This document shows positions 20,839 to 36,411 of a stretch of 44,157 nucleotides of DNA, one piece after another. Under the pieces are notes generated by a model, which did not search any database, had not been told where the DNA came from, and saw nothing but the letters and a program-made list of their open reading frames with translations. The translations under genes were made by a program, and so were the position numbers. Source of the DNA: Eubacteriaceae bacterium (GTDB lineage: Bacteria; Bacillota; Clostridia; Peptostreptococcales; Anaerovoracaceae); the NCBI GenBank assembly GCA_028727785.1, contig JAQYNQ010000038.1:1-44157 (forward strand), in the 5' to 3' direction. Each line of letters begins with the position of its first letter. Within the stretch, counting starts at the first letter, position 1.

Positions 20839-20949
20839 CTACAACCCCCTCACAAATATACCCGCCGTAAATCAGCGTTTACACCATGTGCAAAGAACTT
20901 AACGATTCTCCAGACGCAATGCATGTTGCATAGATTTTTATATAAGCAA

Positions 20950-20978
20950 TTGACATCAGATGTCACAAATGGTAATAT
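20950..20978 (+). promoter_or_regulatory. Promoter of the tetR-hypB-oxidoreductase-hypA operon
   Basis: TTGACA (20950-20955), 17 bp, TAATAT (20973-20978), about 55 bp before the TetR start at 21034. Confidence 0.75.
20951..20965. promoter_or_regulatory. Palindromic operator overlapping the -35 box
   Basis: TGACATCAGATGTCA is a perfect 7-bp inverted repeat around a central A. It overlaps the -35 hexamer and the spacer of the promoter that drives the TetR gene, the classical position for an autorepressor site. Confidence 0.65.
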
Positions 20979-21033
20979 CAAGGAAACTGGGAAACTGAAT
21001 TTGGTTTACGGGTTTCCGCGTGGAGGAAATATC

Positions 21034-21597
21034 ATGAAAGAACTGAGAGAGAGGATTATTGATGTTGCCATTGAAGAATTCACTCGGGGCGGACTGAAAT
21101 TCACTATGAGTGATGTGGCGAAGAATCTTGGGATCAGTAAAAAGACAATATATACTGTTTTCGAGAGCAAACAGGAGGTACTGATCGGGATAGCTGACCG
21201 TTATACTGGAGATTTTCGTAAAATGCAGGAAGAACTGGAGGCAGATGATGATTTGACAGCAGTTCAGAAGCTGGAAAAACTTCTGTGTGCACTGCCAGAA
21301 AAGTACTATAACATCGGGCTTAACCGGATTTATGAGTTGTCGGAGAAGTACCCCGGACCATATAAGTATCTGATGACATCAGTTAATCATGGCTGGGAAC
21401 TGGCGGAGAAATATCTTAAAAAGGGAATCGAAGAAGGAGAGATTCAGAAAGTATCAATTCCGGTTGTAATGTCAATGGTAAAAGGTACAGTGCTCTGCTT
21501 TATGGAAAGTAGTATTCTGTATGAAAACAAGCTGACATATGAACAGGGGAAACTGGAAATGGTAAGAATACTGATGAAAGGAATTGAAGTCAAGTGA
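21034..21597 (+). CDS. TetR/AcrR-family transcriptional regulator
   Basis: A 187-residue repressor. The N-terminal helix-turn-helix covers about 1-50 and includes FTMSDVAKNLGISKKTIYTVFESKQEVL; the remainder is an all-helical ligand or dimer domain with no recognisable subfamily. The start at 21034 is chosen because TGGAGGA lies just upstream; an upstream ATG at 20923 would place the promoter and palindrome inside the gene. It overlaps hypB by 4 bp (GTGA), so it is the first gene of the operon and probably senses a condition that calls for the downstream redox genes. The effector is unknown. Confidence 0.92.
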   Translation: MKELRERIIDVAIEEFTRGGLKFTMSDVAKNLGISKKTIYTVFESKQEVLIGIADRYTGDFRKMQEELEADDDLTAVQKLEKLLCALPEKYYNIGLNRIYELSEKYPGPYKYLMTSVNHGWELAEKYLKKGIEEGEIQKVSIPVVMSMVKGTVLCFMESSILYENKLTYEQGKLEMVRILMKGIEVK

Positions 21598-22265
21598 AGG
21601 ATGTAAGAATCATTGAGATCAAGGAAAGTGTGTTTGCCGATAATGACAGGCAGGCAGAGGCCCTTAGAAGCAGCCTGAAGGAAAAAGGTGTATTTCTTTT
21701 AAATCTGATGTCCTCTCCGGGTTCGGGAAAGACAACAACCCTTACAGGGACCATAGCTGCACTGAAGGACAGTCTGCGTATAGGGGTCATGGAAGCGGAT
21801 ATTGACTCAGATGTAGATGCGAAAACTATTGCTGAGACCGGTGCAAAGACAGTTCAGCTGCATACAGGCGGTATGTGTCATCTTGATGCAGAGATGACAA
21901 GACAAGGGCTCGATGCACTTGGAATAGACGATGTAGATCTGGCAATCCTTGAGAATGTAGGAAATCTTGTATGTCCGGCTGAGTTTGATACAGGGGCAGT
22001 TATGAATGTAATGATTCTTTCTGTTCCCGAAGGTCATGACAAGCCGCTTAAGTATCCGCTGATGTTTGAAGTGTGTGACGCTGTTCTTATAAACAAGATT
22101 GATGTACTGCCATACTTTGATTTCGACATGGAACTTGTGAAAGAGTACATCCATATGAGAAACCCAAAGGCAGATATATTCCCAATCAGTGCGAAGACAG
22201 GTGAGGGAATGGGAGAATGGACAGAATGGCTGAGCAGACAGGCTGCTGAGTGGAAGTGTAAATGA
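21594..22265 (+). CDS. hypB: HypB-type nickel-insertion GTPase
   Basis: A SIMIBI-class GTPase that delivers nickel with HypA. The P-loop SSPGSGKTT lies at 40-48, and the conserved metal-binding pair Cys95-His96 appears in GGMCHLDAEM. The GTP specificity segment NKIDVLPY and ENVGNLVCPAEFD are as in HypB. It lacks the His-rich N-terminal nickel store found in some HypB proteins. Start is GTG overlapping the TetR stop by 4 bp; AAAGGA precedes it. It is separated from hypA by the oxidoreductase gene. No NiFe hydrogenase or urease genes lie in the window, so its client is unknown. Confidence 0.93.
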   Translation: MKDVRIIEIKESVFADNDRQAEALRSSLKEKGVFLLNLMSSPGSGKTTTLTGTIAALKDSLRIGVMEADIDSDVDAKTIAETGAKTVQLHTGGMCHLDAEMTRQGLDALGIDDVDLAILENVGNLVCPAEFDTGAVMNVMILSVPEGHDKPLKYPLMFEVCDAVLINKIDVLPYFDFDMELVKEYIHMRNPKADIFPISAKTGEGMGEWTEWLSRQAAEWKCK

Positions 22266-22281
22266 TAAAGGGAGATAAGCG

Positions 22282-25068
22282 ATGAAAAAGGAACTGGATA
22301 AAGAACTGTATCCGGACTATGTCTATCCGGTGTTTAAGCCTGATTTAGGTGAACCTTTTCGCGAGCCTATTGCGAAATTAGGTAAAAAAATCACGGACCG
22401 TATCCCGCAGAAACTGGGACTGAAAAAGATTACAAAAAATGATCCGGAATACTGGGGACTTGCCGGCGTGCTGACTGATGAAGAGGCGGAGCTGGCATAT
22501 AAGCTGGGCGTAAGAAAGCCGAAGACACTACCGGAAATTGTTAAGATTTCCGGAATGGTAGAAAAGGAATGCGAGGCACTGCTGGAAGAGATGTCCCGCA
22601 AAGGTATTCTGGAATATAACTGGGAGAATGATGCCCACGAAAAGCAGTATGTTCTGCCTATGTATGTGCCGGGGTGTGCAGAATTCTTTAATATGAATGC
22701 AAGCATTCTTAAGTCTAATCCTGAGATGGGAACTTTCTTTGAGCATATGTCACGTCTGCCCCTGGAGAAAATTACACCTTTCGTGCCAGAGGGCGGTGCA
22801 GGTATCGGAATGCATGTAATACCGGTTGAAAAGGCGATTGAGATGGAAAACGAATCCATAGATCTGGAGCACATATCATACTGGCTGGATAAATACGACG
22901 GCAAATACGCTGCCAGTCCTTGCTCCTGCAGACGCTCACGTCTGACTCACGATGAAGGCTGTGCTGACGATCCGGAAGGATGGTGCATTGCTGTGGGCGA
23001 TATGGCAGATTATGTTGTTGAGACACAGAAGGACGGCCGCTACATTTCAAGGGAAGAGGCGCTGGATATATTCCGGCAGGCCGAAGACAACGGATTCGTA
23101 CATCAGATTACAAATATTGATGGGGCACACAAGATTTTTGCCATATGTAACTGTAATGTCAATGTATGTTATGCACTGCGTACTTCACAGCTGTTTAACA
23201 CTCCTAATATGTCACGTTCAGCCTACATTGCCGATGTGGATAAAAAGAAATGTGTTGCCTGCGGAAAATGTGTGGAGAGTTGTCCTGCCGGTGCAGTAAA
23301 GCTTGGACAAAAGCTTTGCGATAAGGAAGGCTGTGAGATTACATATCCAAAGATGCCGCTGCCGACAGAGCAGCCATGGGGAGAGCATATGTGGTCTCAT
23401 AACTACAGAGATACTAACAGAATCAACTGCTATGACACGGGAACATCACCATGCAAGACTGCATGTCCTGCTCATATCGCGGTGCAGGGATATCTTCAGC
23501 TTGCCAAGGAAGGCCGCTATGATGAAGCTCTGGCACTGATTAAGAAGGATAATCCGCTGCCTGCCGTATGTGGCCATGTGTGCAACAGGCGCTGTGAGGA
23601 CGCCTGCACCAGAGGAGAAATCGATGAGGCGGTTGCAATAGATGAGGTCAAGCGTTTTGTTGCAGAAAGAGATCTGAATGCAGAAACACGCTATATTCCT
23701 AAGCCTGTCATTCCGTCACTGCGCGGTGGTTTCAGCGAAAAAATTGCAATAATCGGAGCCGGGCCTGCAGGTCTTTCCTGTGCATATTATCTGGCTCTGA
23801 CAGGATATAAGCCGACTGTATTCGAGAAGAGTGAGGAACCGGGAGGCATGTTGCGTTACGGTATTCCATCATACAAGCTGGAGAAGGATCTTCTGGCAGC
23901 AGAAATTGATGTAATTCGTGAAATGGGCGTAGAAATTCGCTGCGGTGTGGAAGTTGGTAAGGATATTACAATTGAAGAACTCAGAGAACAGGGATATAAA
24001 GGTTTCTATGCAGCTATAGGCTGTCAGAGAGGAAGGAAACCGGGTATAACAGGAGAAAACGCTGAGGGTGCTTATACTGCAGTAGATTTTCTGAAAGAAG
24101 CAGGAGCTAAGGAAAGTTTTGATTTAGAAGGCGATGTTGTTGTTATCGGCGGCGGTAACGTGGCAATAGATGCAGCAAGAGTCAGCACACGCTGTACAGA
24201 TGCGAAGGTTTCTATGTTCTGCCTTGAACAGAAGAGTGATATGCCTGCAAGTGAAGAGGAGATTGCTGAGGCACAGGAAGAAGGAATTGAAATAAACTGT
24301 GGCTGGGGACCAAAAGAGATTATAGAAGAAAACGGTCATGTGAGCGGAATTGTATTCAAAAAATGCGTACGTGTATTTGACGAACAGGGCAGATTTTCAC
24401 CGGAATATGATGAAGATGATACTGTGACAGTGGAATGCAGCCATGTGATTTTCTCCGTTGGACAGACAATAGAATGGGGAAGCATGCTGGATAATCTGCA
24501 TGTGGCGCTTCGACCAAATGGCAGTGTACTCGCTGACAGGCTGACTTATCAGACATCAGAGCCGGATATATTCGCCGGCGGGGATGTTTACACTGGTCCT
24601 AAATTTGCAATAGATGCTATTGCGGCCGGAAGAGAGGGAGCTATATCACTGCATAGATATGTCCATGAGCATTGCACACTGACTATCGGCAGAAATCGCC
24701 GTGATTATATTGAACTTGATAAGGGAAATATAAAAGTGGACACCTATGACGAATCAAAGCGTCAGATTCCACCAAAGGCAGATGTAAATAAGCAGGCAGA
24801 AACCTTCCGTGATTTGTCTTCAAGCTTAACAGAAGAACAGATCAGGAAAGAAACATCACGCTGTCTGTCATGCGGTGCTTCTGTGGTAGATTCCAACAAA
24901 TGTATCGGATGCGGGGTCTGCACAACGAAGTGTGTATTTGATGCAATTCACCTGCACAGAGAACTTCCGGGGGCTTCTGTTATGCGTTCGTCAGAGGAAA
25001 AACTGAAATATATTCTTCCGAATATGATTAAGCAGTCCATCAAAGTAAAATTCCGTAAAAAAGAATAG
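22282..25068 (+). CDS. Large FAD/NAD(P)-dependent Fe-S oxidoreductase (GltD-like core)
   Basis: A 928-residue soluble electron-transfer enzyme. Residues 1-210 include a winged-helix-like part (LTDEEAELAYKLGVRKPKTL) and a Cys-containing region PCSCRRSRL (Cys214, Cys216) with CNCNVNVC later. A ferredoxin motif CVACGKCVESCP starts at 324. From about 391 comes the Fer4_20 domain of glutamate synthase small subunits (CKTACP, CGHVCNRRCEDAC), then FAD-binding IIGAGPAGLSCAYY (about 490) and NAD(P)-binding VVIGGGNVAIDAAR (about 621). The end carries CLSC and CIGCGVCTTKC (874-884). It is therefore able to pass electrons between NAD(P)H and low-potential Fe-S partners. Its reaction is not recognised. 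It lies between hypB and hypA in one operon. Ribosome site GGGAG. Confidence 0.85.
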   Translation: MKKELDKELYPDYVYPVFKPDLGEPFREPIAKLGKKITDRIPQKLGLKKITKNDPEYWGLAGVLTDEEAELAYKLGVRKPKTLPEIVKISGMVEKECEALLEEMSRKGILEYNWENDAHEKQYVLPMYVPGCAEFFNMNASILKSNPEMGTFFEHMSRLPLEKITPFVPEGGAGIGMHVIPVEKAIEMENESIDLEHISYWLDKYDGKYAASPCSCRRSRLTHDEGCADDPEGWCIAVGDMADYVVETQKDGRYISREEALDIFRQAEDNGFVHQITNIDGAHKIFAICNCNVNVCYALRTSQLFNTPNMSRSAYIADVDKKKCVACGKCVESCPAGAVKLGQKLCDKEGCEITYPKMPLPTEQPWGEHMWSHNYRDTNRINCYDTGTSPCKTACPAHIAVQGYLQLAKEGRYDEALALIKKDNPLPAVCGHVCNRRCEDACTRGEIDEAVAIDEVKRFVAERDLNAETRYIPKPVIPSLRGGFSEKIAIIGAGPAGLSCAYYLALTGYKPTVFEKSEEPGGMLRYGIPSYKLEKDLLAAEIDVIREMGVEIRCGVEVGKDITIEELREQGYKGFYAAIGCQRGRKPGITGENAEGAYTAVDFLKEAGAKESFDLEGDVVVIGGGNVAIDAARVSTRCTDAKVSMFCLEQKSDMPASEEEIAEAQEEGIEINCGWGPKEIIEENGHVSGIVFKKCVRVFDEQGRFSPEYDEDDTVTVECSHVIFSVGQTIEWGSMLDNLHVALRPNGSVLADRLTYQTSEPDIFAGGDVYTGPKFAIDAIAAGREGAISLHRYVHEHCTLTIGRNRRDYIELDKGNIKVDTYDESKRQIPPKADVNKQAETFRDLSSSLTEEQIRKETSRCLSCGASVVDSNKCIGCGVCTTKCVFDAIHLHRELPGASVMRSSEEKLKYILPNMIKQSIKVKFRKKE

Positions 25069-25105
25069 GCGGCATGAGAAGGTTTTGGTGTAAAGGAGTT
25101 AAAAA

Positions 25106-25450
25106 ATGCATGAGCTTGGTGTAACCTTTCATATCATGGATCACGTGGAGAAGGTGGCTGCAGAAAATGAGGTATCTCGTGTTTGCAGGGTCACACTTGA
25201 GCTGGGTGAGGTCTCGACAGTAATTGAATCCTATCTGCAGAACTGCTGGGCGTGGGCTGCGAAGAAGCGCCCACTATTCAATGAATGTGAGCTGACTGTG
25301 GAGACTCTGCCTGCCATCACGTACTGTGAGGGCTGTGAAAAAACATATCCTACGGTACAGTACGGAAAAATCTGCCCTCATTGCGGCAGCGAACAGACTT
25401 ACCTGTTGCAGGGAAATGAGTTTAATATTAAGGAAATAGAAGTAGAATAG
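25106..25450 (+). CDS. hypA: HypA-type nickel metallochaperone
   Basis: A 114-residue nickel-binding accessory protein. It starts with MHE, whose His2 is the nickel ligand in HypA, and has the zinc site CEGC (74-77) and CPHC (90-93). Length and the motif VCRVTLELGEVSTV match HypA/HybF. AAGGAG precedes the ATG. Downstream of the oxidoreductase in the same direction, 37 bp away, and 13 bp before the membrane protein gene. The usual partners HypC-HypF are not in the window. Confidence 0.92.
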   Translation: MHELGVTFHIMDHVEKVAAENEVSRVCRVTLELGEVSTVIESYLQNCWAWAAKKRPLFNECELTVETLPAITYCEGCEKTYPTVQYGKICPHCGSEQTYLLQGNEFNIKEIEVE

Positions 25451-25463
25451 GAGGTAAATTTTT

Positions 25464-26498
25464 ATGTTCTTTCAGATATATGGAGAAACAGCTGGGTGGC
25501 AGCTTCTTGGATGGCTGATGGTTTTTACCGGCCTGGTTGTTATGAATGAAATTGCAAGAAGGTCGAAGGCGGGTGGAATCGCTTGCTTTCTGGTTCTTCC
25601 GGCAGCCCTGACTGTATACTTTATTGCTATATATGTGGGTGCGGCAAGAGGCGCTGAATGGGCGCTGAACAACGACACTTATGTACATATGAACAGCTGG
25701 TTCCACTATGCTAAGCTGTATGCTGCTACTGCAGGGTGTATCGGATTCATGATTCTGAAATATCACTGGGGAAAGCTTGGAAAGTCTGTAAACTTTAAGG
25801 TATTTCCTTTTGTAATAGTTGCAATCAATATTCTTATCGCTGTGGCTTCTGACTTTGAATCTGCAATCCGTGCAGGTTCTCTCGCCGGCGGCTGGTGGCT
25901 GTCTTCGGAAGGCGTATGGCTGTACGGCGGATGGTGGAATGTGCTGAACGGTCTTGCAGGTCTTCTGAATATTTTCTGCATGACAGGATGGTGGGGTATC
26001 TACTCATCAAAAGATCAGAAAGACATGCTGTGGCCGGATATGATATGGGTATATGTGCTGGCTTATGATATCTGGAACTTCCAGTATACATATCTGAATC
26101 TGCCGACACACTCATGGTACTGCGGTCTGGCTCTGCTGCTCGCACCTACATTTGCAGCGGCACTGTGGAATAAGGGTGGATGGATTCAGAACCGTGCAAA
26201 TACACTTGCACTATGGTGTATGTTCGCCCAGGTATTTCCGGTGTTTCAGGATGCAAGCCGCTTTACAACAGTTACATCAGTATATGCAGAAGGCGGAATT
26301 GCGGCGGCTATGGGAAGCAGTATGCCGACAGCTGCTGATCCGACAGCACAGGGACTTATTTCTGTTGTGTCCATCGCAGTAAATGTATTCGTATTCGCTT
26401 ATATTCTGAAGAGGGCTAAAGAACAGAAGAAAAATCCGTGGAAGAACGAAATATTTACAGATACAAAAGACTATATCGAAGCTATGGATCGTGCATAG
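25464..26498 (+). CDS. Trp-rich integral membrane protein (DUF5692-like)
   Basis: A 344-residue polytopic membrane protein with roughly eight to nine hydrophobic spans and an unusual number of tryptophans, several as WW pairs (GGWWLS, GGWWNV, GWWGIY). It resembles the uncharacterised clostridial DUF5692 family; I recognise no cofactor motif. The C-terminus is a charged cytoplasmic tail (KRAKEQKKNPWKNE). The ribosome site GGAGG precedes the ATG and the gene is the last of the TetR-hyp operon, followed by a strong terminator. A membrane anchor or substrate channel for the oxidoreductase is only a guess. Confidence 0.8.
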   Translation: MFFQIYGETAGWQLLGWLMVFTGLVVMNEIARRSKAGGIACFLVLPAALTVYFIAIYVGAARGAEWALNNDTYVHMNSWFHYAKLYAATAGCIGFMILKYHWGKLGKSVNFKVFPFVIVAINILIAVASDFESAIRAGSLAGGWWLSSEGVWLYGGWWNVLNGLAGLLNIFCMTGWWGIYSSKDQKDMLWPDMIWVYVLAYDIWNFQYTYLNLPTHSWYCGLALLLAPTFAAALWNKGGWIQNRANTLALWCMFAQVFPVFQDASRFTTVTSVYAEGGIAAAMGSSMPTAADPTAQGLISVVSIAVNVFVFAYILKRAKEQKKNPWKNEIFTDTKDYIEAMDRA

Positions 26499-26533
26499 CA
26501 CAGATACAACATATGCAGATAATTGGACACATG

Positions 26534-26562
26534 AAAAGGCCGGAGCAGAATTCCGGCCTTTT
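26534..26562 (+). terminator. Intrinsic terminator of the hyp operon
   Basis: AAAAGGCCGGA and TCCGGCCTTTT pair over 11 bp around a 7-base loop; the right arm ends in a T-run. Confidence 0.92.
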
Positions 26563-26836: not shown

Positions 26837-26901
26837 GGCCGATTGTAATATCTGTAAAGGTTTTGATTACGGGGCAGGGGATTGATAATCACCGGCCTTT
26901 T
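26837..26901 (+). promoter_or_regulatory. Foldable 5' leader of the pilus operon
   Basis: AAAGG (26856-26860) and GATTA (26865-26869) can pair with CCTTT (26896-26900) and TAATC (26886-26890); alternatively GGCCG (26837-26841) pairs with CGGCC (26893-26897). The two structures compete for the same CC. This could be an attenuator, but I recognise no known riboswitch class in it. Confidence 0.3.
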
Positions 26902-26935
26902 ATTGTTTATTTGCATGAATGGGGAAAGGATTATA

Positions 26936-27511
26936 ATGAAAGCGACTGAACTTCCAAGTGTGGATCAGCTGAAAGAGGAGCTGGACAGGGAGAGATATAA
27001 AGCACGATATAACAGGGTTTTGCGCAGTACGGTTTACTCGCTGATCGTTGTGGCAGCAGTTGCTGTGCTGGTGGCAACCATATGGCTTCCGGTGCTGCAG
27101 ATATACGGAAGTTCCATGACTCCTACTGTTGACGAAGGCGATATTGTTGTATCAGTAAAGGGAACGGATTTCGAACCTGGAGATTTAGTGGCTTTTTATC
27201 TGGGTAATAAAATACTTGTAAAGAGATGCATCGCAGGACCGGGGTCCTGGGTGAATATTGATAAAGACGGAAATGTTTATGTGGACGGCAGTATGCTGGA
27301 CGAGCCTTATCTGACAGAAAAGGCTATGGGTGACTGCAACATTGTGTTCCCATATCAGGTTCCTGATAACCGATATTTCTGTCTTGGCGACCACAGAGCG
27401 ACTTCGGTGGACTCGAGAAATTCCACTGTGGGCTGTGTGTCAGAAGAACAGATTGTTGGAAGAATAGTATTTCGTGTATGGCCCCTGTCAGGGTTCGGAA
27501 CTCTGCAATAG
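26936..27511 (+). CDS. lepB: Type I signal peptidase of the pilus locus
   Basis: Removes signal peptides from exported proteins at the outer face of the membrane. After a charged N-terminus, one membrane span (about 31-53) leads to the catalytic GSSMTPT motif (Ser60) and to KRCIAGPG (Lys96), the Ser-Lys dyad; GDHRATSVDSRN is the family box E. The start at 26936 has AAAGGA about 6 bp upstream, better than a TTG at 26882. With 191 residues it has normal length for Gram-positive SipS-like enzymes. As the first gene of the operon, 17 bp before the tip protein, it is probably dedicated to pilin processing. Confidence 0.92.
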   Translation: MKATELPSVDQLKEELDRERYKARYNRVLRSTVYSLIVVAAVAVLVATIWLPVLQIYGSSMTPTVDEGDIVVSVKGTDFEPGDLVAFYLGNKILVKRCIAGPGSWVNIDKDGNVYVDGSMLDEPYLTEKAMGDCNIVFPYQVPDNRYFCLGDHRATSVDSRNSTVGCVSEEQIVGRIVFRVWPLSGFGTLQ

Positions 27512-27528
27512 TGAGGAAGTGTAATTAA

Positions 27529-30500
27529 GTGAGACAGAATGTGCTACAGAAGATAGCAAAGTACTTAACTGAATATAAGGGCAGAAAGCGCTGGCAGAAA
27601 GTTGTTACCTGCATGGCGGCAGTTGTGGTTTTTTGCACTACATATGCGCTGATACTTCCTGCAATTACAATGGAAGATACTTACTGCGGCATGGAAGAGC
27701 ATGTTCACAGTGATGCATGCTATACAGAGGTGACTACAGGAGGAGAAAGAATTCACGAACATACGGACCAGTGTTATGCCTATGAGCCGGGTGAGCTTAT
27801 CTGCGGGCTGGAAGAAGGCGAAGCAGTTTCTGAAGAGGGAGATGTGCATCAGCACGACGAAAACTGCTATGAAAAGGTTAAAGTACTGGTATGTGATAAA
27901 GAGGAATTTTCCTCTGCGAAAACTGAAAAGAAGCTGACCTGTGGATTACAGGAGCATAGACACAGCGACAGCTGTTATACAGATCTCACATCTGATGTGG
28001 AAACGGCTGAGATGTGGGAGGCATCATTCTCTGATGTTAAACTGACCGGAGACTTTAGGGTTGACGTTCTGAATATTGCAAAGACTCAGCTTGGATATGA
28101 GGAAAGCAAGAAAAACTACGTTGAGACAGAGTCAGGCGACAGAAACGGATACACACGTTACGGAGCCTGGTACGGAGATACATATGGTGACTGGTGCGCA
28201 ATGTTTGCCTCATTCTGTCTGCACTATGCGGAGGTTGAGGATATGCCTGTAGATGCAGGCTGCCAGACATGGATTAAGGAGCTGTGCAGAGAAAAATATG
28301 ATCTGTACAGGGAGGCGCACAGATATACACCTGAAGCAGGTGACCTGGTATTCCTGGACTGGGATGATGACGGCAAATCAGACCATGTGGGTTTTGTTGC
28401 TGAAGTAATCCCTGAGAAGGAGGATAAGCCGGCACAGATCAGAACTATTGAGGGAAACTCCGGAGACTGTGTTCAGAGTCTTACTTACGAGCTGAAGGAC
28501 AGCCGAATTCTTGGATACGGAATGCTGCCGGAGCAGAAGTTCTACTGTGGGGAAAAGGGTCACGTTCATGACGACGACTGCAGAAACAGCGATGGTGAGC
28601 TTTTCTGTGAGCTGAAGGAGCACGTTCACAAGAAGTCATGTAAGGAGAAACCTGCAGAGAAGCTGAAGGAGCTTTCTTTTAAAGGCGAAGATTACACTGT
28701 TGTCGTAAAGTATGGCTCCGATGCAAAACTGCCGGCAGACGTAACTTTGAAAGTGTCTGAAATATCAGAGAAATCTGAAGAATATAAGAATTACTATAAT
28801 AAAGCCGTGAAGGCAATGGGCGTGGATAAGGATGCGGAAAAGGTTGTTCTGGCACGATTCTTCGACATTGAATTCCTGGTGAACGGTGAAAAAGTTGAAC
28901 CGGCTGCACCTGTGTCGGTAACTATTGTCTATGATGAAAAGGTGAAGACTGAAGAGGATATGAACTGTCAGTCAGTCCACTTTACAGATAAAGGACTTGA
29001 ACTGTTAGATGTTGATGTGAAGAAATCAGGTGATGAAACTGTAAGCTTCACCCATGAACAGGACAGCTTTTCCGTAGTCGGAAATGTTGTGGCTGTAAAA
29101 TCTTCATATAACAGTACTGATGTTGGAGACTCGCCTCTGAAGGTTGACTACTATGTATGTATAGACGGAACCTGGACTTTGGTAGGTTCTACTCGCACAG
29201 GCTGGTATGGTGATTATACGGCAACCGGCTGGTCGGATACCAACAGAGACTATATTACTGTAGCTCAGGCAGAGTCTATTCTGGGTCCATACGGATTCGA
29301 TGCCGGTGACAGTAATCCTGCACGAAGGACTGCATATCAGCAGAAGTCAGGTGACACGAAAATTTATTCAGATACGAATACTGTGGAGAAAGACGGAAAG
29401 AGAATAATACCTCTTGCAAGAAATGGAGAGCATCCGGGATATAATCTGTATTATCTTCCTGCTAATTCGGAGTCATTTAAGTCAGTAACATCCGCAGACA
29501 ATCTGGATAAAGTGAATAATGGATTCTATACGGTATCTGTATATGATCCTAACCATCTGGCATACACAGAAGGTGAAGACCTTCCTGAAAGCAAGCTGGT
29601 TAGAAATGGCGGAAGCTATACTGTAACAGTAAAGCCGGTAAAAGATTCATCCGGTGCTTCATGGCAGTGTGTAAGCAGCAACTGGCAGAAGGTTGCAGAG
29701 GGAACTGTAAATGCAGATGGCAGTGTGACATATAATCTGACAAATGTTAGTCAGCAGATTGTGATAACACCGATGAGCGGTGATCTTGGAACGGCATATT
29801 CTAACAGAACTGTTCATTACTATGTATATGTTGACGGAGTCTGGACGGAAGTGGGAAGCACCGCGACCATATACAAGAGTGAAGGACATGACAGATATTA
29901 TGTCACATCTTCACAGGCAGAAAGCGTTCTGGCACCGTACGGATTTACAGGTAGCACATACAGTTTCAACACCGGCGAGGGAAACAAATTTGCCCATCAG
30001 GTGGGCGGTGATATAGATTTAAATAAGACTTTCTATACAGACAATGACTCATGGCAGCTGGCTGATGGAAGCTGGGCAATAGGTTTAAGCTACAGTGAAA
30101 ATGACTATGCACTGTATTATCTGCCGGCAAACACTCGCAGTTTCACTGACAGGACACCGACAAACTTTGCAGCATCAGCCGAGATGAGCGGTAACCGATT
30201 CTGGTCGGTAAAGGTTATTGACGATGAACGCAGAATATATGACAGTGCTCAGCTGGAAAGTCTGACTCAATATGTAAGAGAGGGAACATCAGCTGAGGTG
30301 ACTGTAGAGAATGCAGACGGCATAATCTGGTCATGTGTGGGGAAGAACGGTCAGAAACCTGATGTTTCTGCAACTCAGTCAGGTGGTTATACAACCTTTG
30401 CTATTGATAATATTAACCAGCCTGTAGAAATTGCAGCAACTCTGGCAAATCCGTCTTTCACAGTGCAATACTATGGAAACATACCGAGATTTGCCACATC

Positions 30501-32445
30501 CGGCGATAATGCACTGAAGGTAATTGATACCTCCGGGAAAGCCCTTCCTACTAACGGTGGTTCCATGGCAACAAGAAGTCTGTATCTGGAGGCAGCGGGC
30601 GGCAACACAAATCAGAACGCAGGAACAGCAACACCGCTGTATAAGGTAAAGACTGAAACCAAGCTTGAAAAGCTGTACACTGAGAAGAAGTGTGAATATG
30701 AGACCTCTCCGGATCTCTACTATTTCAACAAGCTGAAAGATAACGAAAGCTATACCCTGAAGGAAATCTGGGTACTGAAAGAAGGTAAGAGCAGCAGTAG
30801 CGTTAACAGAGCCGACTGGGACATTTATCCTTATGTGGAAGGAAAGACGGGAACTGACGGAACGCGATTTACAAATGAAGCGGGCGAAGCCTACGGAGAT
30901 ACCATACTCATTCGCGATGGCGCGGTAATCCGACTGGTAACTGACAGCAGCTCCGGAAGCTACCACAATGGAACAACATTCTATGACTATAACATATCCA
31001 GCGGACAAAACGCTGATGGACGATGGAGAACCGGAATAACCGGAATAAACGAAGAATCAAACTACGGTACCAGCAGAAATGGTCAGCGAAACTGGAGGTC
31101 AGGAGCAGATATCCTTGCTTTCGGTAATGCAAACTGCGGAACCGGAATGTCGGGTTACCTGTTTGATGGCAGTACGTTGAATAAATATAGTAGTAAAAAC
31201 AGCAATTACTATGGTGCAACCTTTAGATTAGTCAACAGTCTGAACAGTGACGGTACTATAAAGTATAACGAATGGATTGTCGCACCTAAGCTGTTTAACG
31301 ATGGAGATGCAAACGGAAAGCAGACCTACAGCGGAAGCTCATTAGAATTCAGCAGAGTAGGTGATACCTATACCTTAAATTCAGCTACACTGAAGAACTC
31401 TAACGGACAGAATAACACACTGAGCAACCTGCAGTATTTCTTCAATCCGTCACCAACGACAGGCACTACACATACTCACATTTTCACAAATAACTTCTGG
31501 CCTATGGATTCTGCAGCCGGAAAAACAGATGCGCTGTGGGGAGAGTACGGCAGTCCTGGCAGCTTCCAGGGATATACTGAGAATAACACTTATAGTTGGG
31601 CAAATCTTGCAGCAGACTTCCCTGTTAGTGACGACGGTCGAGCACATAACTGGTTCTTTGGCATGAACTTCTCACTGAGCTTCAGCCTGACAGCAGACTA
31701 TGAAGGTCCTCTGGAATACTACTTCTTCGGCGACGATGACTTGTGGGTATTCCTGGACAACCAGCTGATTTGTGATATAGGCGGTGTACACAGTTCAATC
31801 GGTGAATATGTAAACCTGAGAGATTATCTTCCTGTAGGTTCTTCAGGACAGCATACTTTAAGCTTCTTCTATACAGAAAGAGGTGCTTCCGGATCAACCT
31901 GCTACATGAGCTTTACGCTTCCTTCTGTATCAAGTGCAACCACTTCACGTGATACAGGAAGTTTGAATATACAGAAGGCTCTAAAGGATGTACATGGTGC
32001 GGACTATAGTGAAGAAGAGTATGAATTCCAGGTAGATCTTTTGAGTAGTGAAAACGGAAGTCCGCTGAACCAGACTTTCGGATTCAGCAAAAATGATGGC
32101 ACTTTTGGAACAATCAGAAGTGGAGGAAAGGTAAGGATGAAAGCCAAGGAGTCCATTACCATAAGTGGAATTCCGGCAGGAGCTTACTATCAAGTAACAG
32201 AATTATCCAGGGATGGATATAGGATAACGGCTAATGGCGAAAAAGGCTATATAGTCAGTGGTAAAATACAAACAGGGGAAGTCAAACCGGCAAGCTTCGT
32301 AAACACGCCGGATTATGAACTTCCTGAGACCGGTGGACCGGGTACAAAATGGTATACGTTAGGAGGACTGCTGTTGATTGCGGCCTCAGGATTCTTCCTG
32401 CTGTATAGATATATGCGAGGAAAGGAGGAATTTGAGTCTTCCTGA
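27529..32445 (+). CDS. Giant LPxTG surface protein with CHAP and fibro-slime domains (probable pilus tip)
   Basis: A 1638-residue surface protein. An N-terminal hydrophobic export segment (TYALILPAITM near 40-50) is followed by His/Cys repeats of the type C-x-EH-x-H-x3-CY (about 52-160 and 338-375). Between them lies a CHAP-like amidase domain with Cys223 (GDWCAMF), His286 (SDHVGFV) and Asn310. Two related modules of about 220 residues start at 539 (VDYYVCIDGTW) and 762 (VHYYVYVDGVW). A fibro-slime/PA14-like region follows (about 1270-1465, FFGDDDLWVFLDN), then a Cna-B/SpaA domain and the sorting signal LPETG (1598-1602), a span and a charged tail. Start is GTG with GAGGAAG upstream. It sits before the main pilin, as tip adhesins do. 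Confidence 0.88.
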   Translation: MRQNVLQKIAKYLTEYKGRKRWQKVVTCMAAVVVFCTTYALILPAITMEDTYCGMEEHVHSDACYTEVTTGGERIHEHTDQCYAYEPGELICGLEEGEAVSEEGDVHQHDENCYEKVKVLVCDKEEFSSAKTEKKLTCGLQEHRHSDSCYTDLTSDVETAEMWEASFSDVKLTGDFRVDVLNIAKTQLGYEESKKNYVETESGDRNGYTRYGAWYGDTYGDWCAMFASFCLHYAEVEDMPVDAGCQTWIKELCREKYDLYREAHRYTPEAGDLVFLDWDDDGKSDHVGFVAEVIPEKEDKPAQIRTIEGNSGDCVQSLTYELKDSRILGYGMLPEQKFYCGEKGHVHDDDCRNSDGELFCELKEHVHKKSCKEKPAEKLKELSFKGEDYTVVVKYGSDAKLPADVTLKVSEISEKSEEYKNYYNKAVKAMGVDKDAEKVVLARFFDIEFLVNGEKVEPAAPVSVTIVYDEKVKTEEDMNCQSVHFTDKGLELLDVDVKKSGDETVSFTHEQDSFSVVGNVVAVKSSYNSTDVGDSPLKVDYYVCIDGTWTLVGSTRTGWYGDYTATGWSDTNRDYITVAQAESILGPYGFDAGDSNPARRTAYQQKSGDTKIYSDTNTVEKDGKRIIPLARNGEHPGYNLYYLPANSESFKSVTSADNLDKVNNGFYTVSVYDPNHLAYTEGEDLPESKLVRNGGSYTVTVKPVKDSSGASWQCVSSNWQKVAEGTVNADGSVTYNLTNVSQQIVITPMSGDLGTAYSNRTVHYYVYVDGVWTEVGSTATIYKSEGHDRYYVTSSQAESVLAPYGFTGSTYSFNTGEGNKFAHQVGGDIDLNKTFYTDNDSWQLADGSWAIGLSYSENDYALYYLPANTRSFTDRTPTNFAASAEMSGNRFWSVKVIDDERRIYDSAQLESLTQYVREGTSAEVTVENADGIIWSCVGKNGQKPDVSATQSGGYTTFAIDNINQPVEIAATLANPSFTVQYYGNIPRFATSGDNALKVIDTSGKALPTNGGSMATRSLYLEAAGGNTNQNAGTATPLYKVKTETKLEKLYTEKKCEYETSPDLYYFNKLKDNESYTLKEIWVLKEGKSSSSVNRADWDIYPYVEGKTGTDGTRFTNEAGEAYGDTILIRDGAVIRLVTDSSSGSYHNGTTFYDYNISSGQNADGRWRTGITGINEESNYGTSRNGQRNWRSGADILAFGNANCGTGMSGYLFDGSTLNKYSSKNSNYYGATFRLVNSLNSDGTIKYNEWIVAPKLFNDGDANGKQTYSGSSLEFSRVGDTYTLNSATLKNSNGQNNTLSNLQYFFNPSPTTGTTHTHIFTNNFWPMDSAAGKTDALWGEYGSPGSFQGYTENNTYSWANLAADFPVSDDGRAHNWFFGMNFSLSFSLTADYEGPLEYYFFGDDDLWVFLDNQLICDIGGVHSSIGEYVNLRDYLPVGSSGQHTLSFFYTERGASGSTCYMSFTLPSVSSATTSRDTGSLNIQKALKDVHGADYSEEEYEFQVDLLSSENGSPLNQTFGFSKNDGTFGTIRSGGKVRMKAKESITISGIPAGAYYQVTELSRDGYRITANGEKGYIVSGKIQTGEVKPASFVNTPDYELPETGGPGTKWYTLGGLLLIAASGFFLLYRYMRGKEEFESS

Positions 32446-32511
32446 CAAGTTGCAGATAAATCAAAATAAAATAAAACCCCAAACAGAATTTTAAAGAAAG
32501 AGGATGAAACG

Positions 32512-33984
32512 ATGAAGAAAATGAAAAAGGTTGGCAGTCTGTTGTTAGCCCTAATCATGGTATTTTGCATGAGTACAACAGTATTTGCCGCAAACACCAA
32601 TTCACACACCATTACAATCAAAAATGACAAAGCAGGACACACTTACAGTGCATATCAGGTTTTCAAAGGAGATATCTCCAATGGCAAGCTGACAAATATC
32701 GAATGGGGAGCTGGAGTAGACGGAGCAAACCTGTTAACAGAGCTAAAGAAGAAGACAGCCTTTGCTAAATGCACTGACGCTGAGTCTGTAGCTGATGTTG
32801 TTGCAACATTAAGTGATACTGACTTAGATGCCTTTGCAAAGACTGTGAACGGTTTTTTAAGCACAACAGTTGCAGCAAGTGTTAGTACAAAACCGTATAC
32901 TATGACTGTATCTGGCGACGGATATTATCTTGTTAAAGATAAAGCAGCTGTTACAGGTGACGATGCAGCAACTAAAATTATATTAAAAGTTGTTAATGAT
33001 GTAGAAGTGACACCAAAATCATCTACACCTTCCATTGACAAGGTTATTGTAAATGCAGATGACACTAAAGGAAATGGAACAGCACAGGATGTAGGAAGTG
33101 TTGTTAAATTCAAACTTACATCATCAATTCCTGCTATGGACGGATATGACACATATAAATATGTCGTAAACGATACAATGTCTGCAGGATTGACTCCTGT
33201 TGACGCAGACGAAGACGGAAAAATAGATGTTTCAGTTACAATTGGCGGCACATCATACTCAAATTTCACTGTTGAACAGAATGGTCAGAAATTTACAATT
33301 ACTTTCGATAACCTTAAAGGTCAGAAAGTGGGTGATGTTGTAGAGATTACATATTCTGCAACAATCAATGAAAACGCATTAACTACAGACAAGGAAACAA
33401 ATACAGTTAACCTGCAGTATTCAAATGATCCGAACAATAGCAATTCTTTAGGTAAGACACCTGATAAGACAGTTTATGTATATGACTTCGACATTAAAAT
33501 CGACAAGTTTGCAGCTGGAACAAATGAAAAGCTTGCAGGAGCAGAATTCATTCTCTACAAGATGGATGGACAGAATAAGTTATATTACAAATATAATACG
33601 ACAGACAAGAAAGTTGAGTGGGTAGCTGAAGCTGATGCAACAAAGGTTGTTACTGATGCAAAGGGAGTTGCCAGCTTCAAGGGTCTTGATTCAGAAACAT
33701 ACTATATGCACGAAACAGCAGCTCCTAAAGGATACAATCTTTTGAAGAGCGATGTAGAAGTTACTATCACTGCTACATATGGAGATAATGGTCAGATTAC
33801 TTCAAGTACTGCAGTATCATCTGCCGGTGGACAGTATATCCAGACTAAGAGTATCGAGAATAAATCAGGTGCTGAGCTTCCGGCAACTGGTGGTATCGGT
33901 ACAACTATATTCTACATTCTGGGCGGAGTTCTTCTGGTTGGAGCAGCTGTAATGCTTGTAGCAAGAAGACGTATGAGAGACTAA
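32512..33984 (+). CDS. Major pilin (SpaA-type isopeptide-forming fimbrial subunit)
   Basis: The backbone subunit of a sortase-assembled pilus. The 490-residue protein has a clear signal peptide (KKVGSLLLALIMVFCMSTTVFA), a central isopeptide-forming fimbrial D2 domain (about 180-320, ending TPDKTVYVYDFDIKIDK with the candidate pilin lysine region), a Cna-B domain with the E-box YYMHETAAPKGY (Glu401), the sorting signal LPATG (456-460), a membrane span and a KRR-like tail (RRRMRD). The ribosome site AAGAGG precedes ATG. It lies 66 bp after the tip gene, and a GC-rich hairpin separates it from the sortase gene, which would favour high pilin expression. Confidence 0.93.
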   Translation: MKKMKKVGSLLLALIMVFCMSTTVFAANTNSHTITIKNDKAGHTYSAYQVFKGDISNGKLTNIEWGAGVDGANLLTELKKKTAFAKCTDAESVADVVATLSDTDLDAFAKTVNGFLSTTVAASVSTKPYTMTVSGDGYYLVKDKAAVTGDDAATKIILKVVNDVEVTPKSSTPSIDKVIVNADDTKGNGTAQDVGSVVKFKLTSSIPAMDGYDTYKYVVNDTMSAGLTPVDADEDGKIDVSVTIGGTSYSNFTVEQNGQKFTITFDNLKGQKVGDVVEITYSATINENALTTDKETNTVNLQYSNDPNNSNSLGKTPDKTVYVYDFDIKIDKFAAGTNEKLAGAEFILYKMDGQNKLYYKYNTTDKKVEWVAEADATKVVTDAKGVASFKGLDSETYYMHETAAPKGYNLLKSDVEVTITATYGDNGQITSSTAVSSAGGQYIQTKSIENKSGAELPATGGIGTTIFYILGGVLLVGAAVMLVARRRMRD

Positions 33985-34027
33985 TGTTTGATTTATCTAA
34001 GAGGAAATAACTAACATGCTGTGAATA

Positions 34028-34048
34028 CGGGGAGGAGAATCCTCCCCG
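34028..34048 (+). promoter_or_regulatory. GC-rich intercistronic hairpin between pilin and sortase
   Basis: CGGGGAGGA (34028-34036) and TCCTCCCCG (34040-34048) form a perfect 9-bp stem with a GAA loop. There is no T-run, so it is more likely an mRNA-stabilising or processing element for the pilin message than a full terminator. Confidence 0.65.
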
Positions 34049-34075
34049 GCCCACAGCGGTAAGGAGAGCGCTACT

Positions 34076-34909
34076 TTGAAAGCAAAGAAGAAAAAAGGTC
34101 AATTAACAACAGTATTACTTGTTTTGATTATGCTTGTAGGGCTGTCCTTACTGCTGTACCCGACGGTCAGCGATTACTGGAATTCGTTCCATCAGACCAG
34201 AGTTATTGAAAGCTATGCTGAGACTGTTTCACGAATGGATCCTGCCAAGTGCGAGCGCATCCGGGAGGAAGCCAGAAAATATAACAGGTATCTCAGAGAA
34301 GGCGGTCATGACTATAATCTTAATAAAGATGAACGGAGAGAATACGACAGACAGCTGAATATATCCGGTGATGGTGTCATGGGATACGTTCAGATTCCGG
34401 GAATCAACTGTTCGCTTCCGATTTACCACGATACAGAAGATACCATTCTGCAGGTTGCTGTGGGACATCTGCCGTGGTCCAGCCTGCCTGTGGGCGGCAA
34501 GAGCACACACTGCGTAATTTCAGGCCATCGCGGTCTGCCCAGCGCCAAGCTTTTTTCGGATCTGGATAGAGTTGTTGAAGGTGACCTGTTTATGCTCAAT
34601 GTTCTGGACGAAACCCTATATTATGAGGTGGATCAGATTCTCATAGTTAAGCCGGAGGAAACAGAGGAACTTCAGATAGTAGAAGGTGAAGATTACTGTA
34701 CTCTGGTTACGTGCACTCCGTACGGAATCAATTCTCACAGACTTCTGGTGCGCGGTCACAGGATCAACCCGGAAGATCTTGAGGGAATGAATGTTTCACC
34801 GGACGCAGTACAGATAGAGCCATTGCTGGTGGCACCGGTAATAGCATTGCCGATTCTATTGGTTTTGATAATGATAATTTTTGTTCCTAAAAAAAGAAAG
34901 AAGGACTGA
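34076..34909 (+). CDS. Class C (pilin-polymerising) sortase
   Basis: Links pilin subunits through their LP-x-TG signals. The 277-residue protein has an N-terminal membrane span, the sortase core beginning VMGYVQIPGINCSLPIYHD, the catalytic His151 (SGHRGLPSAKLF), Cys213 (TLVTCTPYG) and Arg222 (NSHRLLVRGHR), and a C-terminal hydrophobic span with a KKRKK tail, the class C layout. I do not see the usual DP-aromatic lid motif in the expected segment (REGGHDYNLNKDERREY), so the lid may be different. The start is TTG 34076, with AAGGAG at 34061-34066; no closer ATG exists. Position after the main pilin supports its role as polymerase. Confidence 0.93.
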   Translation: MKAKKKKGQLTTVLLVLIMLVGLSLLLYPTVSDYWNSFHQTRVIESYAETVSRMDPAKCERIREEARKYNRYLREGGHDYNLNKDERREYDRQLNISGDGVMGYVQIPGINCSLPIYHDTEDTILQVAVGHLPWSSLPVGGKSTHCVISGHRGLPSAKLFSDLDRVVEGDLFMLNVLDETLYYEVDQILIVKPEETEELQIVEGEDYCTLVTCTPYGINSHRLLVRGHRINPEDLEGMNVSPDAVQIEPLLVAPVIALPILLVLIMIIFVPKKRKKD

Positions 34910-34939
34910 AAAGGCTAAGGGAAGGGGACTGAAAATCTT

Positions 34940-35434
34940 ATGACTGATGTAGAACTTCGCAAGTTAAAAAGGGCAGACCTTTTGGAAATCCTGGTAGAAC
35001 AGGGGCAGGAAAACGAAGCTCTGAAAGCCAGAGTTGAAGAACTGGAGAAAAAGCTGGAGGATAGAGAAATCCGCATTAATAATGCAGGGACTATCGCGGA
35101 GGCGGCCTTTGAAATGAATGGGGTGCTGGAGGCGACTCAGGCTGCGGCACAGCAGTACCTGGATAACATTAAACTGCTTAGTGAAAGGCAGGAAAAGGTC
35201 TGCAGTGAAAGGGAAGAAAAAACTCTTAATGCATGTGCTGCTTTAAAGGAATCAGTTCAGGCACAGTGCGAAAAGATGAAAGCAGATACAAAGAAGGAAT
35301 GTGACCTGATGAGAAAAGTGGCAGAAACAGATGTGGAAGCCAGGTGGAAGGAACTGACCACAAGAATGGAAGACTTCTGTAATGCACATGAGGATTTGAA
35401 GAACCTTCTGAAGGCTTCAGGTCTTCAGAAGTAA
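34940..35434 (+). CDS. Coiled-coil protein of the pilus locus, function unknown
   Basis: A 164-residue cytoplasmic protein with no signal peptide. It begins MTDVELRKLKRADLLEILVEQGQENEALKARV, a heptad-rich start that continues as a coiled coil to about residue 50, then long helices with several cysteines (around 92-127). I recognise no enzymatic motif. Similar proteins with the same N-terminus occur inside clostridial sortase/pilin loci. It is placed between the class C sortase and the basal pilin with gaps of 30 bp, so it is surely co-transcribed. It may act at the inner face of the assembly site, but that is inference. Confidence 0.8.
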   Translation: MTDVELRKLKRADLLEILVEQGQENEALKARVEELEKKLEDREIRINNAGTIAEAAFEMNGVLEATQAAAQQYLDNIKLLSERQEKVCSEREEKTLNACAALKESVQAQCEKMKADTKKECDLMRKVAETDVEARWKELTTRMEDFCNAHEDLKNLLKASGLQK

Positions 35435-35463
35435 GATATAGCTAAGGAAACGAGGACTAAACC

Positions 35464-36411
35464 ATGCAAAAGCAGAAAATGAAATTAAGACTACTGATCT
35501 GTGGTCTAATCTGCATAATAATATGCCTGTTCAGTGCGACAACGTCTGTTTTTGCATTGGAGAGCATAAATCCGGATGCGAAAGCCGGCATTACAATTAA
35601 ATACAGCGTGGAGGACACCGAATTTGCACTGTACAGAGTAGCCGGCGTGTCATCAGAAAATGTTTTTACACCGACAGAAGATTTTAAAGATTATCCTCTG
35701 GAGTGGAACGGTCTGGATGCAGAGGGCTATCGAGCCCTAGCTGAAACTCTGGGAATATATATTAAGAGAGACAATATTAAGAGAACAGCAACAGCCGTGG
35801 TAAACGAATCCGGCCTTGCAACGGCTGACAATCTGGAAACAGGTTTGTATTACGTCATCGGAATTCAGCCGGAGTACGCAGTGAGCGAAGTGAAACCGCT
35901 GCCGTTCCTTGTTTGTCTTCCATCAGGTCCCGAAGATGACCGATGGGTATACCATCCTACTGTAGTCGCAAAGAGAATGGTAGACGATTCCCATCTTATT
36001 GATTCTACAGAGAGACGAGTAATCAAAGCCTGGGAGGACGCATCAAACAAGGAAAACCGTCCTGACAGTGTAGAAATAGAGCTGTTAAGAGACGGCAAGG
36101 TTGTAGATACAGTAGAACTTAACAAAAAGAACAACTGGTCACATACATGGGAAAACCTTTCAAAGGATTATGAATGGAGTGTCATGGAAAAGAATGTGCC
36201 GGAGGACTATACAGTTTCCGTTGTACGAGAGAAGACAACTTTCTTCGTTACCAACAAGTATGTCTCAGATGGAAGGCCTCTTCCGGATGACCAGCATCTG
36301 CTGCCATATACGGGACAGCTGTGGTGGCCGGTTCCTGTTCTTGCAATGGCAGGCATGATATGCATGATTATAGGACTGCTGCGCAGAAAGATCGGTGAAG
36401 AGGATGTTTAA
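35464..36411 (+). CDS. Minor (basal) pilin with Cna-B domain
   Basis: A 315-residue secreted subunit with a signal peptide (LLICGLICIIICLFSATTSVFA), an N-terminal part resembling pilin D1 domains, one Cna-B domain (VIKAWEDASNKENRPDSVEIEL through FFVTNKY, about 184-265) and the sorting signal LPYTG (280-284), a span and a basic tail. The different signal (Y in place of E or A) suggests recognition by a different sortase, likely the one encoded next, which would fix the pilus base to the wall. The stop overlaps the start of that sortase gene. Which subunit is basal is inferred from size and order. Confidence 0.88.
   Translation: MQKQKMKLRLLICGLICIIICLFSATTSVFALESINPDAKAGITIKYSVEDTEFALYRVAGVSSENVFTPTEDFKDYPLEWNGLDAEGYRALAETLGIYIKRDNIKRTATAVVNESGLATADNLETGLYYVIGIQPEYAVSEVKPLPFLVCLPSGPEDDRWVYHPTVVAKRMVDDSHLIDSTERRVIKAWEDASNKENRPDSVEIELLRDGKVVDTVELNKKNNWSHTWENLSKDYEWSVMEKNVPEDYTVSVVREKTTFFVTNKYVSDGRPLPDDQHLLPYTGQLWWPVPVLAMAGMICMIIGLLRRKIGEEDV

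Follow-up and report, generated by a model that had tools for sequence, protein, structure and literature searches.

The window analysed here is a stretch of 44,157 nucleotides from a Eubacteriaceae bacterium (assembly GCA_028727785.1, contig JAQYNQ010000038.1), and our subject is an operon of five co-directional genes at positions 21034-26498 of its + strand, encoding a TetR-family regulator, the GTPase HypB, an Fe-S flavoprotein of 928 amino acids (aa), the metallochaperone HypA and a membrane protein of the DUF5692 family (Table 1). The GTG start codon of hypB overlaps the stop codon of the TetR gene, and the remaining intergenic gaps measure 13 to 37 bases. Profile matches and conserved residues bear out a preliminary description, made from the sequence alone, which had recognized hypB, a 928-residue oxidoreductase, hypA and a Trp-rich membrane protein among the five genes. 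By its architecture the flavoprotein belongs with IsrA of Acetobacterium wieringae, a putative isoprene reductase that is induced by isoprene (Kronen et al. 2023, PMC10134865). We conclude that the operon is real and conserved and that its group has been described before; it is of the type with DUF5692 and TetR genes, not the five-gene isr operon itself.

Table 1. Features of the IsrA-type operon and its flanks, in coordinates of the window
Feature	Position	Strand	Basis
Promoter-like TTGACA-17-TAATAT, TG before second hexamer (plausible only)	20950..20978	+	promoter scan
TetR-family regulator, 187 aa from ATG at 21034	21034..21597	+	PF00440 38.5 bits; GGAGGAA ribosome-binding-like site
HypB, GTPase nickel chaperone, IsrA-linked branch	21594..22265	+	TIGR00073; C95, H96, C127; tree
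IsrA-type Fe-S flavoprotein, 928 aa	22282..25068	+	PF14691, PF07992, Fer4; Foldseek; alignments
Codons of the Cys6 site (C214, C216, C235, C289, C291, C296) and H274	22921..23169	+	alignment of 89 proteins
HypA, nickel metallochaperone, IsrA-linked branch	25106..25450	+	PF01155; H2 and four zinc-type Cys; tree
DUF5692 polytopic membrane protein, Trp-rich	25464..26498	+	PF18948; predicted model
Terminator-like hairpin and T run, AAAAGGCCGG...CCGGCCTTTT	26534..26562	+	read from sequence; absent from the list of the automatic scan

The flavoprotein begins with a domain that has no Pfam family; a 4Fe-4S motif and the domains PF14691 and PF07992 come next, and a further 4Fe-4S region lies at the C-terminus. 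The six cysteines of the N-terminal domain, which make up the Cys6 site, and H274 are each invariant in 89 of 89 aligned proteins (L129, with a stop in its translation, was left out). The first CxC motif (C214/C216) and the second (C289/C291) are spaced by 75 residues from start to start, and the spacing is 74 in seven divergent relatives (42–54% identical), equal to that of the published CxC positions in IsrA, Cys180/Cys254 (PMC10134865). The flavoprotein thus has the chain of ~900 aa with domains in the IsrA order, the Cys6 site with two CxC motifs and the adjacent hypA and hypB genes of the 'clade 9' (IsrA) group, and we assign it to this group as judged by architecture, cysteine spacing and neighbours rather than by comparison with the sequence of IsrA itself. 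When we searched for the A. wieringae IsrA protein, none of the 120 matches listed carried the name Acetobacterium. Over the N-terminal domain, identity to other proteins reaches 99% (one row of 97% is named Emergencia sp.), and a Blautia locus encodes a protein 88% identical over its whole length, yet three genomes from the genus and family of the window's genome (G097, G001 and G041) have no IsrA profile match, so the distribution of the operon is patchy.

A Foldseek search of the PDB identified NfnABC, StnABC, NfnL and dihydropyrimidine dehydrogenase (DPD) as the best neighbours of the flavoprotein, together with glutamate synthase proteins (GltD). These rows would fit an electron-transfer hub, i.e. 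an Nfn-like NAD(P)H:ferredoxin oxidoreductase that feeds another reductase, and possible electron takers occur in four other loci (L120:2417-10417, L123:3333-9333, L126:5337-11726 and L133:4569-10991), where IsrA and HypA lie near HGD-D proteins (PF06050), which are related to benzoyl-CoA reductase and double-cubane proteins. However, the window operon contains no such partner, and the glutamate-synthase-like profile matches in the flavoprotein start no earlier than residue 348; the Cys6 domain, which is conserved, is therefore an addition that would have no role in a plain Nfn, and we consider a mere hub unlikely. One HGD-D protein was tested in NCBIfam, where its best row, double-cubane reductase, scored 135 bits and so fell short of the cut-off (350). 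At L120 there are, in addition, genes for an activase-type ATPase and for a protein that weakly matches CdhC, the beta subunit of acetyl-CoA synthase (ACS). The profile of the N-terminal domain, searched against PDB sequences, found ferredoxin-type repeats at profile positions ~280–323 and one weak row elsewhere (positions 38–91, E 0.065) among the 60 of 108 matches listed.

The association of IsrA with HypA extends well beyond the window. The profile of the IsrA N-terminal domain matched 8 of the 148 genomes searched in the class, along with 4 of 22 and 9 of 32 genomes in two families; three genomes are counted twice across these sets, and the distinct genomes with IsrA number 18 of 192. From the 192 we chose 80 clostridial genomes, namely 62 negatives and all 18 IsrA-positive ones, of which G156 matched only in part; the counts that follow are therefore not population rates. 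HypA was found in 18/18 genomes with IsrA versus 7/62 without it (Fisher p 1.4e-12, an overstated value because relatives are not independent), and 18 of the 19 IsrA places have HypA no more than ~3 kb away. HypD was found in 7/18 versus 12/62, with no HypD match in 11 of the 18 genomes with IsrA. Five of the seven IsrA-negative genomes with HypA have HypD. Six of these seven HypA loci were read: L083-L086 have HypA and HypB beside HypD, with the hydrogenase large subunit as well in L083 and L086, and L105 and L106 have none of these partners nearby. The latter two loci (L105:7396-10228 and L106:8131-10477) contain a HypA-like match with neither HypD nor IsrA in the vicinity, next to genes whose sequences resemble those of a 2-oxoacid:ferredoxin oxidoreductase. 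Among the seven genomes with both IsrA and HypD, five (G153, G096, G068, G165 and G171) carry a second HypA in a HypD cluster, which in three cases also gave a HypB match.

In the source assembly (1.93 Mb, 98.4% complete) the HypA of the operon is the only one over the cut-off, a second match of 22.2 bits falling below it. We found no match for NiFe hydrogenase, HypD, urease alpha, LarA (lactate racemase) or Prismane/carbon monoxide dehydrogenase (CODH), in a search that did not cover HypC, HypE and HypF individually, nor nickel superoxide dismutase (Ni-SOD), Ni-glyoxalase, acireductone dioxygenase and ACS. With neither HypD nor the hydrogenase large subunit matched in this genome, the operon does not qualify as a NiFe-hydrogenase maturation operon. 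Within the families searched, these results agree with the preliminary description, which saw chaperones without a known client and named the oxidoreductase as one possible nickel enzyme; because none of the usual nickel enzymes looked for turned up, the flavoprotein is probably the chaperones' own client. Nor did we encounter either part of what that description had named as counter-evidence, namely a hydrogenase or CODH elsewhere in the genome without its own hypA/hypB, and a gene neighbourhood that is not conserved.

Both chaperones retain the residues of their families. HypB scores 247 bits with TIGR00073 (cut-off 121.2) and has the G-domain CH...C site (C95-H96 and C127), with no cysteine ahead of residue 95. 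HypA scores 107.2 bits with PF01155 (cut-off 28.9) and has H2 and two CxxC pairs, although it stays under the NCBIfam hypA equivalog cut-off (TIGR00100, 72.6 vs 88.1 bits). In phylogenetic trees of sets that we had thinned, IsrA-linked and HypD-linked sequences fall on opposite sides of one branch, both for HypB (33 vs 7 rows, support 100/99; 40 of 77 sequences, with a long-branch warning) and for HypA (34 vs 9 rows, support 95/82; 46 of 91 sequences). The branches also differ in marker residues: H90 of HypB is present in 33/33 IsrA-linked vs 0/7 HypD-linked rows, and C47 of HypA in 31/34 vs 0/9. A remnant of a hydrogenase or urease maturation system was considered and rejected, given the separate chaperone branch and the lack of a match for HypD, hydrogenase or urease alpha. 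In the HypA tree a HypA of G026 neighbours the IsrA-linked branch; its gene directly precedes those for LarC (TIGR00299, 207.5 bits against a cut-off of 90) and a CobW-type GTPase (L098:7816-10413), with no HypD match nearby; this is perhaps another nickel-delivery set. The separateness of the branches could also mean that the metal has changed, in which case the chaperones would deliver a metal other than nickel or only aid Fe-S cluster building, and IsrA would not be a nickel enzyme. The Cys6 site could indeed hold an Fe-only cluster, and it has been compared with the nitrogenase P-cluster and the double-cubane cluster (PMC10134865). This explanation appears improbable to us, as the known nickel and zinc residues C95, H96 and C127 of HypB and H2 and the two CxxC pairs of HypA are retained in every IsrA-linked row.

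The DUF5692 protein (PF18948, 459.3 bits, cut-off 27) contains 20 tryptophans in 344 residues. Its predicted model (mean predicted local distance difference test, pLDDT, 83.1) is mostly helical, and Foldseek and VIA, including a comparison with the seven-transmembrane (7TM) receptor-like fold, gave helical-bundle background only. Among the best 80 of 589 confirmed DUF5692 stretches, many of them on cut contigs, IsrA is present in 70/80, HypA in 67/80 and HypB in 59/80, in several gene orders (L016 and L021, with ambiguous letters, were dropped before counting; L010, with only a cut 3' end of IsrA on its contig, was scored as lacking it). The oxidoreductase/DUF5692 neighbourhood is thus conserved, with exceptions to the adjacency of hypA and hypB. 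One stretch (L065:4219-13837) contains two IsrA, two HypB, one HypA and one DUF5692. Nine loci have DUF5692 alone; all nine genomes have IsrA elsewhere, and HypA adjoins that IsrA in eight. In the 21 genomes tested DUF5692 occurs only together with IsrA, but IsrA-HypA-HypB loci without a DUF5692 match are also found (L089, L091, L092, L099-L102 and L104), so DUF5692 is probably an accessory and is not the general client of the chaperones. Chance adjacency of the operon genes is rejected on account of the genome co-occurrence and the conservation of DUF5692 loci. It could still be argued that HypA and HypB serve some other client, either DUF5692 or an unrecognised nickel enzyme elsewhere, and share only their regulation with IsrA: IsrA has no adjoining HypA/HypB at L088, L073, L074 and L058, four kinds of nickel enzyme lay outside the scope of the source-genome search, and nickel delivery to IsrA is something we infer. 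Against this stand the presence of HypA in all IsrA-positive genomes, the loci without DUF5692 and the known clients that were searched and gave no match, and we regard such a client as a doubtful alternative.

The preliminary description presented the operon as an undescribed system, and in this it was mistaken: Kronen et al. had already described the enzyme group and its link to Hyp proteins, put forward nickel, and recorded DUF5692 and TetR as neighbours. They proposed the Cys6 site as a substrate cluster and possible nickel site, and their neighbourhood survey of 988 homologues gave frequencies of 0.73 for HypA, 0.56 for HypB, 0.40 for DUF5692 and 0.21 for TetR (PMC10134865). Among the papers listed by our literature searches we found none on this operon in gut bacteria, and beyond Kronen et al. 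the enzyme appears there only in two other papers on A. wieringae (PMC9765523, PMC12509576). Isoprene and butadiene are reduced by A. wieringae strain Y, whereas ethene, propene and fumarate are not (PMC9765523), which points to conjugated dienes.

Based on these results we suggest, with a probability of roughly 0.55, that this is an IsrA (clade 9) operon in which HypB and HypA load nickel into the Cys6 site for the NAD(P)H-driven hydrogenation of a conjugated C=C bond. The suggestion is founded on the IsrA architecture with its Cys6 site, the co-occurrence with HypA, the separate chaperone branches and the genomes in which a lone DUF5692 is accompanied by IsrA elsewhere. NAD(P)H would reduce flavin adenine dinucleotide (FAD) in the Nfn/GltD-like core, from which electrons would run along the 4Fe-4S clusters to the Cys6 centre; nickel would be handed from HypB to HypA and on to this centre, which is the least tested step. 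A hydrophobic substrate, predicted to be a conjugated diene such as a conjugated fatty acid, would bind at the Cys6 centre and have its conjugated C=C bond hydrogenated there. TetR is predicted to sense the substrate or a related compound, and DUF5692 to act as an accessory in substrate delivery, enzyme anchoring or electron exchange with the membrane.

Several observations weigh against this interpretation. Nickel in IsrA is a proposal, and the work consulted contains neither a metal measurement nor a purified IsrA. The AlphaFold2 model of the flavoprotein (mean pLDDT 74.5) falls below 50 in several Fe-S stretches, so we took no cluster geometry from it. IsrA without adjoining HypA/HypB occurs at L128 and L132 in addition to the four loci mentioned above; G109 and G005 carry HypA without HypD or IsrA; and in G026 and G156, despite their HypD, we saw no HypA linked to it, the second HypA of G026 being the one beside LarC and G156 having a single HypA. 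Acetobacterium strains with homologues 47–49% identical do not reduce isoprene (PMC10134865), which implies that substrates differ. Finally, only weak hints favour conjugated fatty acids as the substrate: TetR regulators near the cluster II homologues and an oleate hydratase next to the A. woodii and A. fimetarium homologues (PMC10134865), a weak row for the Bacillus FadR profile with our TetR (38 bits, cut-off 200, NCBIfam), and the GntR-FCD regulators that accompany other IsrA members (one regulator cluster in 19 loci). In G042 the genes upstream of IsrA (L089:11005-14431) encode a TetR and an FAD/NAD/2Fe-2S reductase, as well as an FAD protein of the crtI family whose score of 118 bits does not reach the cut-off (238).

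Only a handful of enzyme kinds are known to use nickel, among them urease, NiFe hydrogenase, CODH, ACS, methyl-coenzyme M reductase, Ni-SOD, glyoxalase I, acireductone dioxygenase and lactate racemase. We raise, as a speculation that goes further than the reading preferred above, that IsrA-type proteins are a new class of nickel enzymes, in which a nickel-iron-sulfur centre of the Cys6 domain would hydrogenate unfunctionalised conjugated double bonds, and that their DUF5692-associated versions serve the anaerobic biohydrogenation of conjugated fatty acids in gut bacteria, with a HypA/HypB branch of dedicated nickel loaders. What our analysis adds to the published work is the genome-wide dependence of IsrA and HypA, the branching of their chaperones apart from HypD-linked ones, and a genome in which the usual clients that we searched gave no match. 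These make the nickel question directly testable: with its sole over-cut-off HypA in the operon and the searched clients unmatched, the source genome offers a clean background against which to ask if a C=C reductase uses nickel. If it does, nickel supply would affect double-bond saturation by such bacteria. Current annotation labels such hypA and hypB genes as hydrogenase maturation factors, and the signature residues of the two chaperones could separate these operons from hydrogenase operons.

As to the borders of the operon, the open reading frame of TetR opens at 20923, but GGAGGAA precedes the later ATG at 21034, so TetR is probably 187 aa long and the promoter-like site lies upstream of it. 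The promoter scan of the region yielded 14 promoter-like sites where 14.1 are expected by chance, which makes the site at 20950 plausible only. The terminator ascribed to the operon is the hairpin at 26534-26562, read from the sequence. Downstream in the window (26882-36411) follows a sortase-type surface locus, with genes for a signal peptidase S26, a 1638-aa CHAP/DUF7601 protein, a pilin-like LPXTG protein, a sortase and a Cna_B protein.

Among known systems, the operon most resembles the isr operon of A. wieringae ISORED-2 and strain Y (PMC10134865, PMC9765523), with which it shares the ~900-aa architecture, the CxC spacing of 74–75 and the hypA and hypB neighbours. Unlike that five-gene operon (isrA, two hypA, hypB and a ferredoxin gene), it has one hypA and no ferredoxin gene and includes TetR and DUF5692, so that it is not an isr operon in the strict sense; in these two neighbours it is like the clade 9 members of the published survey (PMC10134865). 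The flavoprotein shares its PF14691 and PF07992 core with the Nfn/Stn transhydrogenases, the small subunit of glutamate synthase and DPD, but differs from all of them in its N-terminal Cys6 domain, C-terminal 4Fe-4S pair and Hyp partners. Its HypA and HypB belong to the same families (PF01155 and TIGR00073) as their counterparts in NiFe-hydrogenase clusters and have the same metal residues, but they are distinguished by a genome with no HypD or hydrogenase match, by their separate branch, and by H90 in HypB and C47 in HypA.

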